20,360 nucleotides of DNA from a virus, in IMG/VR virus record IMGVR_UViG_3300033994_000437, positions 1 through 20,360 of that record; one strand, 5' to 3'. Shown here piece after piece: positions 4,214 through 11,090 of this stretch (positions within the stretch are counted from its first letter, which is position 1; the number at the start of each line of letters is the position of its first letter). Made by a program: the position numbers and the translations under genes. Below the pieces are notes generated by a model. The model was not told the DNA's origin. It was given only the letters and a program-made list of their open reading frames with translations, and did not search any database.

Positions 4214-4272
4214 ATTATAGGGGATATTCACTGCCAATGGGGGTCTAATGTGCCAGAAGGATTGGTGGCACA
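4214..4272 (-). promoter_or_regulatory. composite promoter element E4
   Basis: Minus strand: a perfect 7-bp inverted pair TGTGCCA (4272-4266) and TGGCACA (4255-4249), 10-base centre, 29 bases, -10 box TATAAT (4219-4214). The whole palindrome lies within the 3' end of the methyltransferase gene. Confidence 0.87.
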
Positions 4273-5157
4273 ATCGTATACAGAAATAATCCACTTTAGG
4301 ATATTAAAATTCATACGTTTTCTGTAAATGCCACAATTCATTGTAGATTTGAAAGAGGTGAGATAAAAGTCCCTTGTTTCATCTCTCCATTCATTGATGA
4401 ATGAATTTAGTTTATCAATGTCTAATTTATTTGGAGAATAGAATAGAGAGTAGTTTCTAGAAGTATGTTTAAGGTACTTTTCTCTATCAAAACTTTCAAC
4501 ATTGTCATGAATATGAATACTTCTACCCTTTGTTGAATCTATTGCACACAGAACATAATTTCCATGAGAAACATTAAATGAAATTGAAGGGTTAGTATTT
4601 GTTGGTGGATGTTCCTTTATCTCTTTTCCATTCACATAAATTTTTGTTCCTTTCGATTTTGGTGCAAAGTATGCAACACCAACAGGAACATCAGTATCGG
4701 AAAAAACTTCTTTATCTAGTTTATCCCATGCAATCAATCTATCTTGAAATAAACCAGTATTGTGAAATGTTGATGGTATAATTGCTGCAACATACCCACA
4801 ATTATTCAACATCAATTCTAAGCAATCAAGATATAGGTCCTGATACTTGATTAAAACATTTAATTTCTTTCTGGAGATCGTTGTCTTTGCAAGATATGGA
4901 GGATTGGTGATACAAACATCATAACCAATCGGAAAGTTCTTAATCGTATCTTGTCTGATAATACTATCAATCTTTGGGTCAATATCATAACCTTCCCATT
5001 CTTCATCTAGGTATGAATACAATAATCCAGCACCTGCGAATGGTTCAAGAACTTTTACTCCTTTTGGTCTCAAACTATTCCATAAAGAAAAAGCATCAGA
5101 TCCTGCAAAGGGATCTGATGTAGTGTAAAATTGACCCAATAATTGTTTATTATCCAA
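4228..5157 (-). CDS. N6-adenine DNA methyltransferase (restriction-modification type)
   Basis: 309 residues. It transfers a methyl group from S-adenosylmethionine to adenine in DNA. Visible motifs in gamma-class order: LLGQFYT (6-12, motif X), VLEPFAGAG (36-44, motif I), YDID (57-60, motif II) and catalytic NPPY (85-88, motif IV). The remaining 200 residues would hold the target-recognition part. The start is TTG 5157, because AGGAGA lies six bases upstream; a longer TTG reading begins at 5178. It overlaps the endonuclease-like gene by eight bases, so the two are translated together in unit E5. Its last residues (about CATNPSGTLDPHWQ) are encoded by element E4. Target sequence unknown. A lone protective methylase is the alternative reading. 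Confidence 0.9.
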   Translation of the reverse strand: MDNKQLLGQFYTTSDPFAGSDAFSLWNSLRPKGVKVLEPFAGAGLLYSYLDEEWEGYDIDPKIDSIIRQDTIKNFPIGYDVCITNPPYLAKTTISRKKLNVLIKYQDLYLDCLELMLNNCGYVAAIIPSTFHNTGLFQDRLIAWDKLDKEVFSDTDVPVGVAYFAPKSKGTKIYVNGKEIKEHPPTNTNPSISFNVSHGNYVLCAIDSTKGRSIHIHDNVESFDREKYLKHTSRNYSLFYSPNKLDIDKLNSFINEWRDETRDFYLTSFKSTMNCGIYRKRMNFNILKWIISVYDCATNPSGTLDPHWQ

Positions 5158-5827
5158 GCAATCTCTCCTGAAACTCAATGTGATTCACAACCCAAATGTT
5201 ATCGGTTTGTTTCTCTTTCAAAGATGCAAACTCTTCTCCATCAATAAGCATAACATAAATCTTATCTTCTTGTCCAAACTCTTTTGCCCACTCAATATAT
5301 TGGTTCATTTCATGCAGAACATTATCTTGATGCCCACCAGCACCAATAACAATCTTAGCAAAAATGTATCCACTTTTAGGTCCATCAAAAATACCATCAA
5401 TGGACTTTAGTGCATGAATATCTTTGTTTAAGTTTTCTTTCTTAAACTCTTTTTTGGTCATAATTTTACCATTTTTGCAAGGTCGAAGTTCGTCAACCCC
5501 ACAACAACGGATATTGTAATTATACTTTTTCATTTCAGTAGCAACGCCATCAATAATGAAGGATTCATCCTTTTTACCTTGACGACTTGCATTTTTTGCA
5601 ATAGCAATGGCAACGGTCTTACTGAATACAATGCTATTTGCACATTCAGTTAACAGATCATCATAATCAAAGTCAAGTTCATCAAGCAAACGATCAATTG
5701 CTTTATCATTTGCAATCTTCACAAGTTCGGAATAAGAAGGGGAGTTCTTATTCAATTCTTCTGCGATAATATAATTGTTGTATTTTTGACGCTCACTGCG
5801 AAGATCGGCAACGTCTGTGGTGAACAT
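5150..5827 (-). CDS. putative type II restriction endonuclease-like protein
   Basis: 225 residues. The upstream ATG at 5860 is rejected because it precedes the -10 box; ATG 5827 lies 21 bases below it. Features recalling type II endonucleases: SRQGKKDE (81-88), a phrase common in that group, and SIDGIFDG...YIFAK (142-158). This gives a possible catalytic Asp144 and Lys158. The canonical acid two residues before the lysine is Phe156, but Glu173 follows on a helix (HEMNQYIEW), resembling the relocated acid of NgoMIV/Cfr10I-type enzymes. The immediate, overlapping adenine methyltransferase strongly supports a restriction role. It could also be an inactive remnant. Family assignment is inference. 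Confidence 0.6.
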   Translation of the reverse strand: MFTTDVADLRSERQKYNNYIIAEELNKNSPSYSELVKIANDKAIDRLLDELDFDYDDLLTECANSIVFSKTVAIAIAKNASRQGKKDESFIIDGVATEMKKYNYNIRCCGVDELRPCKNGKIMTKKEFKKENLNKDIHALKSIDGIFDGPKSGYIFAKIVIGAGGHQDNVLHEMNQYIEWAKEFGQEDKIYVMLIDGEEFASLKEKQTDNIWVVNHIEFQERLLG

Positions 5828-5848
5828 GGTTTCTTTTGAACTGTTGGT

Positions 5849-5907
5849 ATTATAGGGCAAAACCCGTTGGAACGGGAGATGATGTGGACACTAAGACAAG
5901 TGGCACA
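5849..5907 (-). promoter_or_regulatory. composite promoter element E5
   Basis: Minus strand: arms TGTGCCA (5907-5901) and TGTCCAC (5890-5884), 10-base centre, 29 bases, -10 box TATAAT (5854-5849). It drives the restriction-modification-like pair. The palindrome directly abuts the stop codon of the 5908-6231 gene. Confidence 0.85.
5863..5876 (-). terminator. hairpin plus TTTT in spacer of E5
   Basis: Minus strand CCCGT-loop-ACGGG followed by TTTT, a short rho-independent terminator shape that could end unit E6 just before the next transcript begins. Confidence 0.55.
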
Positions 5908-6231: not shown

Positions 6232-6395
6232 TAGGCAGTAAGTCCAACATCCATTACGGGTTCATCATCATTATACTCAAGAATTGCTTCTCCAGCATCG
6301 TGATTAAGTTGCTCATAAATGCTTTCATAAATCCAATCACAACAGGGTTGGTCATCCTCAACAAGGAGTTTAATAGTGATAGTTACTTCTTTCAT
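6231..6395 (-). CDS. small acidic hypothetical protein
   Basis: 54 codons, ATG 6395 overlapping the upstream stop as ATGA. The protein starts MKEVTITIKLLVEDD, a beta strand-like opening, has a CCDWIYES helix and an acidic end. The compact size and strand-helix order fit a small alpha/beta phage protein, but no family is recognised. Coupled on both sides within unit E6. Confidence 0.78.
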   Translation of the reverse strand: MKEVTITIKLLVEDDQPCCDWIYESIYEQLNHDAGEAILEYNDDEPVMDVGLTA

Positions 6396-6834: not shown

Positions 6835-6956
6835 CAGATTACTTTGAGTTTGCGTTTGATGTGTTGCAATGCTTGTTTTCTTGCTTTGAGTTTCCCCTTG
6901 CAAGAACCTTTGGTGTTTTTACGTTTTCCTGAGTTGTGCTGCCAATTCGGAGTCAT
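6834..6956 (-). CDS. very small basic protein, first gene of unit E6
   Basis: 40 codons, 13 of them Lys or Arg and only hydrophilic residues between, suggesting RNA or DNA binding. ATG 6956 is preceded by AAGGGGAGGG. An in-frame ATG at 6980 touches the -10 box of E6 and cannot be on the transcript. The stop is shared with the next start. Confidence 0.7.
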   Translation of the reverse strand: MTPNWQHNSGKRKNTKGSCKGKLKARKQALQHIKRKLKVI

Positions 6957-9896: not shown

Positions 9897-10127
9897 TCAA
9901 TAAGATTCAATTTCTGCCAGTTTCTTTTGCTGTCGCAGTTCCTTCACAATCATCTGAAGTTCAGCAATGTCTTCATTCAGAATTGTAAGGTCATCATACA
10001 TCATTTCTGCCTGATAAGCACTCCTGCATTTTTTGTATTGCTTGGAGAGTTTATCGAACTTTTTCTTTGCTTCCTTGAGATCTTTTTCATACTCGGGAAG
10101 TGTTTTTTCGAATTGTTGATAATTCAT
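9897..10127 (-). CDS. coiled-coil hypothetical protein
   Basis: 76 codons, ATG 10127 overlapping the upstream stop as ATGA. Nearly the whole protein is a charged heptad-like helix (EYEKDLKEAKKKFDKLSKQ, then LNEDIAELQMIVKELRQQ) with a short break around residue 40, so an antiparallel coiled coil is likely. Its immediate neighbour upstream is a membrane protein, with which it is co-translated. Confidence 0.8.
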   Translation of the reverse strand: MNYQQFEKTLPEYEKDLKEAKKKFDKLSKQYKKCRSAYQAEMMYDDLTILNEDIAELQMIVKELRQQKKLAEIESY

Positions 10128-10249
10128 TTGCGATAAGGACTAGACCAGTAAGAACGAAAAACGGAATAAACAATAACAACAGTGCTGATAACACCAACCA
10201 AACCGATAAGGGTAATGGCATCACCTGTAAATGCGTAAGACTCGGGCAT
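10124..10249 (-). CDS. small single-span membrane protein, first gene of unit E8
   Basis: 41 codons, ATG 10249, 23 bases below the -10 box of E8. Residues 11-31 (AITLIGLVGVISTVVIVYSV region) form one hydrophobic helix, followed by a basic tail ending SPYRK, so the C-terminus should be cytoplasmic. A longer overlapping reading in another frame (10087-10320) is rejected, since it would cross the promoter. Confidence 0.75.
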   Translation of the reverse strand: MPESYAFTGDAITLIGLVGVISTVVIVYSVFRSYWSSPYRK

Positions 10250-10272: not shown

Positions 10273-10331
10273 ATCATAGCACCTCTTGGGTGCTTCATCA
10301 AGTAGTAATGGACAGTCCAAAAACCGTCCAT
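10273..10331 (-). promoter_or_regulatory. composite promoter element E8
   Basis: Minus strand: arms ATGGACG (10331-10325) and TGTCCAT (10314-10308), 10-base centre, 29 bases, -10 box TATGAT (10278-10273). Both arms are of the TGTCCA type, making it the most divergent copy. Confidence 0.75.
10278..10294 (-). terminator. 6-bp hairpin in spacer of E8
   Basis: AGCACC/GGTGCT stem with a 5-base loop, touching the -10 box. No T-run. It parallels the hairpin in E7 in position. Confidence 0.4.
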
Positions 10332-10351
10332 CGTTATACTTATGTATTCAA

Positions 10352-10642
10352 TCAACCCACAACATCTTGGTAAGTATTCCGAACATTTTCTACAAGATTA
10401 TCACGTTTCTCTTGAGTTGTAAGGTTTGCAAGGACAAACCGCACAGTTGCATAAACACCAACAACCTGCATCAGAGAATTGAAAACAGGAATACTATCAA
10501 CAATCTCAACAAATCCGTGAAGAATGAGTTGAGAAACAATCACGACGGTGAAGATACCAGCAGTCAATCCTGCTTTCCTCAGAACTTCATCAGTAATGTT
10601 TTCAGTGTAAAACTCTTTGACAGTGTTAAAATTGAATTGCAT
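10352..10642 (-). CDS. CAAD/CURT1-like domain membrane protein
   Basis: 96 residues, ATG 10642. Two adjacent hydrophobic helices (about 24-47 and 52-73), joined by EIVDSIPVFN, are followed by VYATVRFVLANLTTQEKR and a final amphipathic helix. This order (two spans, then a Y-RF/YR-x-L, a QE-R turn and a terminal helix) fits the cyanobacterial CAAD domain, related to plant CURT1. In hosts this domain anchors aminoacyl-tRNA synthetases to thylakoids, or as a stand-alone protein bends thylakoid membranes. The phage copy lacks any synthetase part. It is likely host-derived. Recognition is by pattern only. Last gene of unit E9. Confidence 0.75.
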   Translation of the reverse strand: MQFNFNTVKEFYTENITDEVLRKAGLTAGIFTVVIVSQLILHGFVEIVDSIPVFNSLMQVVGVYATVRFVLANLTTQEKRDNLVENVRNTYQDVVG

Positions 10643-10659
10643 TGTTTTGGTTAATTGAA

Positions 10660-10827
10660 TTACTTGTCAAACTTTTCTAGAAACTCATCTATCCTTTCAA
10701 TCTTTGCAGTATAATCTGCAACTAAATCGTGATGAGGATAGTTGTAATACTCTGGACGTTTAAGGCAATCAAGCAAGTGCTGCTTAACTGACTTCCGAAT
10801 CTCACATTCTATTTGTATTCCAGTCAT
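10660..10827 (-). CDS. small hypothetical protein
   Basis: 55 codons, ATG 10827 overlapping the previous stop (TGATG). It is helical throughout (QIECEIRKSVKQHLLDCL, then VADYTAKIERIDEFLEKF) with a middle PEYYNYPHHD. No known motif; it resembles a small helical hairpin. Between 10827-11090 and the CAAD gene in unit E9. Confidence 0.77.
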   Translation of the reverse strand: MTGIQIECEIRKSVKQHLLDCLKRPEYYNYPHHDLVADYTAKIERIDEFLEKFDK

Positions 10828-11090
10828 CACCATTTACCTCGTTGAAGCATAATCTTTTTGATTTCCTCAAAGATAAACTTCTTCATCTTCTTATCCTCAG
10901 TTGCCTCGTATGCAAGATACAAACGATTTAGATAGTCATCTTGTGTGTTAATTTTAACCACCTTAGTATTTGTTGTGCCAATATCACGCAAAGGGGAACC
11001 TGCTTTTACTTTTGCTTTACCGAAGTTTCCAGAAACAACACCTTGAGTGCGGAGTTTGGGTTTGATTTTAGAAAGGTTGGAGGCAGTCAT
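10827..11090 (-). CDS. basic hypothetical protein, first gene of unit E9
   Basis: 87 codons. ATG 11090 has AAGGGA upstream and lies 21 bases below the -10 box; the ATG at 11162 is inside the promoter and is rejected. The first 45 residues are basic, Gly/Ser-rich and probably flexible (KIKPKLRTQGVVSGNFGKAK). The last 40 are a charged helix (MKKFIFEEIKKIMLQRGKW). Nucleic-acid binding is possible, unproven. Confidence 0.8.
   Translation of the reverse strand: MTASNLSKIKPKLRTQGVVSGNFGKAKVKAGSPLRDIGTTNTKVVKINTQDDYLNRLYLAYEATEDKKMKKFIFEEIKKIMLQRGKW

Follow-up and report, generated by a model that had tools for sequence, protein, structure and literature searches.

The window analysed here, a stretch of viral DNA 20,360 nucleotides long, contains on its minus strand an open reading frame that starts with an ATG at 10642 and whose stop codon ends at 10352. 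We refer to this gene as phage curT, after CurT, a small membrane protein that shapes photosynthetic membranes in cyanobacteria and plants; its 96-aa product is MQFNFNTVKEFYTENITDEVLRKAGLTAGIFTVVIVSQLILHGFVEIVDSIPVFNSLMQVVGVYATVRFVLANLTTQEKRDNLVENVRNTYQDVVG. Besides the window, seven further IMG/VR contigs carry the gene, all at full length and with 73-100% identity, and these eight loci are called clade A below. The features of the locus, with helices taken from a predicted structure, are the following:

10352..10642, minus strand: phage curT, stand-alone CAAD/CurT protein of 96 aa (PF14159 match, AlphaFold2 model, kept in seven other contigs)
10598..10630, minus strand: predicted helix 1, residues 5-15, short, N-terminal and weakly amphipathic (AlphaFold2 model, hydrophobic moment)
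10496..10588, minus strand: predicted helix 2, spanning residues 19-49, the first of two membrane helices (AlphaFold2 model, hydropathy)
10424..10483, minus strand: predicted helix 3, spanning residues 54-73, the second of two membrane helices, containing VYATVRFVL (AlphaFold2 model)
10358..10414, minus strand: predicted helix 4, spanning residues 77-95 at the C-terminus, soluble and amphipathic (AlphaFold2 model, hydrophobic moment)
10660..10833, minus strand: 57-aa gene upstream of curT (list of open reading frames; homologues in 5 of 8 loci)
10124..10249, minus strand: 41-aa single-helix protein (phrog_14199) downstream of curT, always adjoining it in clade A

In all eight clade A loci, curT has its own start and stop and is not fused to an aminoacyl-tRNA synthetase (aaRS), and its flanks are the same. 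Two conserved small genes lie upstream, and the genes for the phrog_14199 protein, a 76-aa protein, a metallophosphoesterase and an HNH endonuclease follow downstream. The upstream 57-aa gene terminates 17 nt ahead of curT, and the two are likely to share one transcript; a promoter-like site at 10301-10273 precedes the phrog_14199 gene. Pairwise dN/dS values of phage curT are about 0.08-0.27 (Nei-Gojobori), and the gene is under purifying selection. A chance open reading frame can be excluded because these values are accompanied by an identical gene order in 8/8 loci and by a CAAD match with E = 2.3e-15. An overlapping 122-aa frame on the plus strand (10286-10654) was considered as well, and we take it to be a shadow of the real gene.

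CAAD (PF14159) is the sole Pfam match of the window protein, with a score of 56.6 bits, far above the curated cut-off of 30.7 bits, and it spans profile positions 11-85 of 85. Every clade A copy exceeds the cut-off, scoring 53-58 bits across almost the entire domain, and the same family was matched by all 23 sampled phage proteins, including those of a second, more distant clade (clade B; 53.8 bits). It is therefore nearly certain that the window protein belongs to the CURT1/CAAD family. Small two-helix membrane proteins of phages are frequently holins or exclusion proteins, and phage CurT could in principle be a holin-like or superinfection-exclusion protein of unrelated function that resembles CAAD by chance. 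We consider this very unlikely, given the near-complete domain match in every clade A copy and a reciprocal profile search in which host CurT proteins were the top cellular matches; moreover, the sampled phage CurT proteins had no match in PHROGs, holin or otherwise.

The AlphaFold2 model (56 viral and host sequences, mean pLDDT 83) places helices at residues 5-15, 19-49, 54-73 and 77-95, in agreement with an earlier model built from 48 sequences, and pLDDT is 77-92 across the last three. Since pTM is just 0.42, the model can be used for helix positions and not for helix packing. The C-terminal helix is amphipathic (18-residue moment 0.44), and VYATVRFVL occupies residues 63-71. By plain hydropathy the second hydrophobic segment scores low, its 19-residue Kyte-Doolittle mean being less than 1.5; it is called a membrane helix because of homology and the structure model. 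Published CurT proteins comprise an N-terminal amphipathic helix, two membrane helices and a C-terminal soluble helix (PMC12462475, PMC12575082), and the phage protein is predicted to have this four-helix layout in the same order. No solved CurT structure was found in the PDB by sequence search, alignment search or Foldseek, and a match of phage CurT in BFVD was rejected as a chance match. The original prediction had described a CAAD/CURT1-like protein with two membrane helices, the VYATVRFVL segment and a terminal amphipathic helix, and had proposed a CAAD profile search as a check; absence of a profile match together with an unrelated predicted structure would have refuted it. The strong PF14159 match and the published helix order mean that neither outcome occurred, and the description held with one correction, the weakness of the second helix by plain hydropathy.

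The gene lies in the genome of a T4-like cyanophage. The UvsW-type helicase of the window matches exclusively phage records, nearly all of them from cyanophages, as are all its best matches, and the window tRNA-Arg (8577-8502) is similar to cyanophage tRNA-Arg genes. Among the genes of G007, a 247-kb clade A relative, are those for the T4-type large terminase, portal, capsid (gp23), sheath, DNA polymerase, UvsX and NrdA; its capsid is 73-75% identical to those of cyanomyoviruses such as S-B43 and P-SSM2, and both psbA and psbD are present. Its two ends (1-2392 and 242860-247112) hold UvsW on one side and the curT-HNH cluster on the opposite side; when joined, they reproduce the gene order of the window, and this contig is therefore probably a circularly permuted, near-complete genome. 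The phrog_14199 protein also occurs in known cyanophages without curT, among them freshwater or estuarine phages such as S-CRM01, S-SRM01, DSL-LC03 and S-CREM1, which leads us to infer a freshwater or estuarine picocyanobacterial host.

A profile of phage and host domains revealed a more distant viral relative, L186, which is 44% identical and located on a contig with UvsW. A search seeded with L186 returned 45 loci, and a search with a joint alignment found 73, namely 7 of clade A and 66 of clade B, the latter including two truncated by contig ends. Clade B, found on 66 viral contigs, is about 44% identical to clade A; phage curT is thus a recurrent viral family with two clades. Among 44 clade B contigs checked, UvsW was present in 33, and nearly all encode a DUF6267 protein, mostly directly after curT:

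L186 1967-2884: DUF6267 (PF19782) protein of about 305 aa, after curT

The neighbours of curT differ between the two clades. One 112-kb clade B contig carries the T4-type capsid gene gp23, and psbA and psbD were not found in the clade B contigs searched, all of which are fragments. An intergenic repeat, AGTGTCCTAGTAGTRTAAGG, was observed in the clade B contig L233 at 1558-1577, 1953-1972, 6278-6297 and 6864-6883, with one copy just upstream of curT. These four copies in 8.1 kb compare with 0.02 expected, and the repeat is a possible promoter or regulatory element.

Queried by tblastn with clade A, with two members of clade B and with host CurT (the last being an approximate consensus that served solely to retrieve real host sequences), 50,697 GenBank phage records yielded no relative. 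Neither did the host-type GYSGWFVY region, used as a motif query, find any viral CAAD, and an initial phage-profile scan of genome contigs gave no match because the profile patterns sat in the phage-specific N-terminus. The choice of isolation hosts might account for the lack of curT in isolates, although this is only a possibility. The phage setting assumed in the original prediction is borne out by the T4-like cyanophage genes, and its proposal to search other cyanophages has a divided answer, with uncultured relatives of two clades carrying curT and 15 complete cyanomyoviruses giving no match to the Pfam CAAD profile even at E 1. Going beyond that prediction, the protein stands alone and is more likely of the CurT type than a piece of an aaRS, and it is part of a two-clade viral family.

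In 390 sampled cyanobacterial genomes, the best matches to the phage profile were stand-alone proteins of small genomes (1.6-3.7 Mb; 47-60 bits), themselves clear CAAD members, followed at 45 bits or less by the CAADs of synthetases of about 1090 aa and by a second small-genome paralogue; a repeat search gave the same order. The 76-residue CAAD core aligns without gaps between the phage proteins and the picocyanobacterial stand-alone CurT proteins (about 120-140 aa), with 29-33% identity, and both share GIF..VIV.Q, P....L, NLTT..KR and a final G. CurT of Synechocystis and Synechococcus elongatus and plant CURT1 have the helix order, Pfam family and four-helix size class of phage CurT; however, identity to CurT of larger cyanobacteria is just about 14-26%, and function has been demonstrated for the cellular proteins only. 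In a phylogenetic tree, clades A and B form one group (93/80) that is sister to picocyanobacterial CurT (96/90). The tree is modest, resting on about 100 columns with long branches. By sequence, the nearest cellular relatives are the stand-alone picocyanobacterial CurT proteins, although kinship with aaRS domains is not excluded. The most economical scenario is that the gene was acquired once, long ago, and probably out of a picocyanobacterial host, with the donor unproven.

Several observations were made in the cellular genomes themselves. Clear CAAD proteins are present in Prochlorococcus-sized genomes of about 1.6-1.9 Mb (L119-L133), in contrast to Prochlorococcus PCC 9511, which lacks a CURT1 homologue according to PMC9950537. 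One picocyanobacterial genome holds two tandem curT copies (L143; G184:C1:2578885-2579476), and several small genomes encode a further, longer CAAD paralogue of about 190-240 aa.

An origin from an aaRS domain is less probable but remains possible, as an AU test did not reject the grouping of phage CurT with aaRS CAADs (p 0.12). The CAADs of cyanobacterial ValRS, IleRS, LeuRS and GluRS belong to the same Pfam family, and a VD..PVF..LM.LVG-like motif of the phage protein resembles that of the synthetases of about 1090 aa; in contrast, the phage protein has no synthetase, and aaRS CAADs score lower in the profile search. This kinship bears on one functional alternative, a plain anchor, in which the hairpin would dock a phage or host protein (adjacent small proteins, host synthetases or ATP synthase) on thylakoids without shaping them. 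In its favor, the CAAD fused to ValRS acts as a thylakoid anchor (PMC4893482), the gene neighbours are invariant in clade A, and the AU test leaves aaRS kinship standing. However, all copies of the phage protein that were seen stand alone and lack a fused domain, their sequence is closer to stand-alone CurT, and the neighbours are not the same in both clades, which makes a mere anchoring role unlikely.

Phage CurT differs from its host counterparts mainly at the N-terminus. Picocyanobacterial CurT has an N-terminal tail of about 40-50 residues, whereas the phage protein begins just ahead of helix 1 and carries six extra residues between this helix and the membrane hairpin. The 18-residue moment of the N-terminal helix is 0.25 in the window, 0.33-0.39 in clade B and 0.43-0.62 in hosts, and the window value does not exceed that of shuffled sequences (P 0.39-0.62). 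Compared with host CurT, the phage protein thus has a weaker amphipathic helix at this place, which is one of the candidates for the curvature wedge. According to PMC9950537, it is undecided which of the two, hairpin wedge or amphipathic helix, causes membrane bending; for this reason, the weak helix does not rule out curvature activity, yet it prevents us from claiming it.

The shortened form and weak helix also allow a dominant-negative role, in which trimmed phage CurT would enter and disrupt host CurT oligomers, disordering thylakoids or blocking the link between CurT and FtsZ, so that division stops and room is made for virions. Host CurT binds FtsZ and influences division, and its loss misplaces FtsZ rings (PMC12462475); a block of division is a common means of host takeover among phages. 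Against this, no divisome-binding region has been mapped, so such an activity cannot be read from the sequence, and loss of CurT harms photosynthesis, which G007 with psbA and psbD seems to try to keep. We regard this alternative as possible, ranking it below support or replacement of host CurT and above the plain anchor.

The reading we prefer, with a probability of roughly 0.55, is that phage CurT supports or replaces host CurT and thereby keeps curved zones of photosystem II (PSII) assembly and repair. It is inferred, without localisation, expression or phenotype data. Curved thylakoid zones and the efficient assembly of PSII depend on host CurT, which also co-purifies with FtsH4 (PMC12575082), and convergence zones are associated with the assembly and repair of PSII (PMC13353191). 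In the proposed mechanism, the two-helix hairpin would insert into the host thylakoid, and the protein may form oligomers, either on its own or together with host CurT, by way of its membrane helices and C-terminal helix. Curved zones for PSII assembly and repair would then stay working once host expression stops, new D1 and D2, including phage-encoded copies, would still be built in, and photosynthetic energy would continue to fuel phage replication. All steps beyond membrane insertion are inference, including thylakoid location, bending and oligomerisation, and the suggestion that a phage protein could reshape or occupy thylakoids, made in the original prediction, stays at that level, with an N-terminal amphipathic helix weaker than the host's. 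Support or replacement of host CurT is favored since a phage with its own D1 and D2, such as G007, would benefit from zones where both are built in, though this link rests on that single near-complete genome.

In the open-access literature searched, which leaves out most subscription papers and all bioRxiv preprints, we found no earlier report that connects phage genes with CurT, CURT1 or CAAD. The kind of protein is known, and it is likely that the recurrent, trimmed viral form of the gene is new. Similar to psbA, psbD, hli and petE, curT would be a host-derived thylakoid gene in T4-like cyanophages; those genes encode parts of photosystems or electron transport, whereas CurT would be a membrane-shaping protein. 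Cyanophages are known for pieces of the photosynthetic machinery, but, as far as our searches show, they are not known to carry a protein that shapes the membrane housing it. A bolder inference, to which we lean only slightly, is that T4-like cyanophages devote a gene specifically to membrane architecture and that this gene, diversified into two or more viral clades, represents a functional class new among cyanophage auxiliary genes; its product would remodel or preserve thylakoids in infection and possibly act on the CurT-FtsZ division link. If the phage protein acts like CurT, cyanophages would control thylakoid architecture beyond the enzymes therein, and their photosynthesis-related functions would extend to it. 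The gene offers a direct handle on whether cyanophages keep or dismantle PSII assembly zones, and, if it acts like CurT, the trimmed viral form is a natural test of which part, hairpin or amphipathic helix, bends membranes.

Elsewhere in the window, at 4228-5860, adjoining genes encode a DNA methyltransferase (phrog_18657) and a type II restriction endonuclease (phrog_18366), which may constitute a phage-borne restriction-modification pair.
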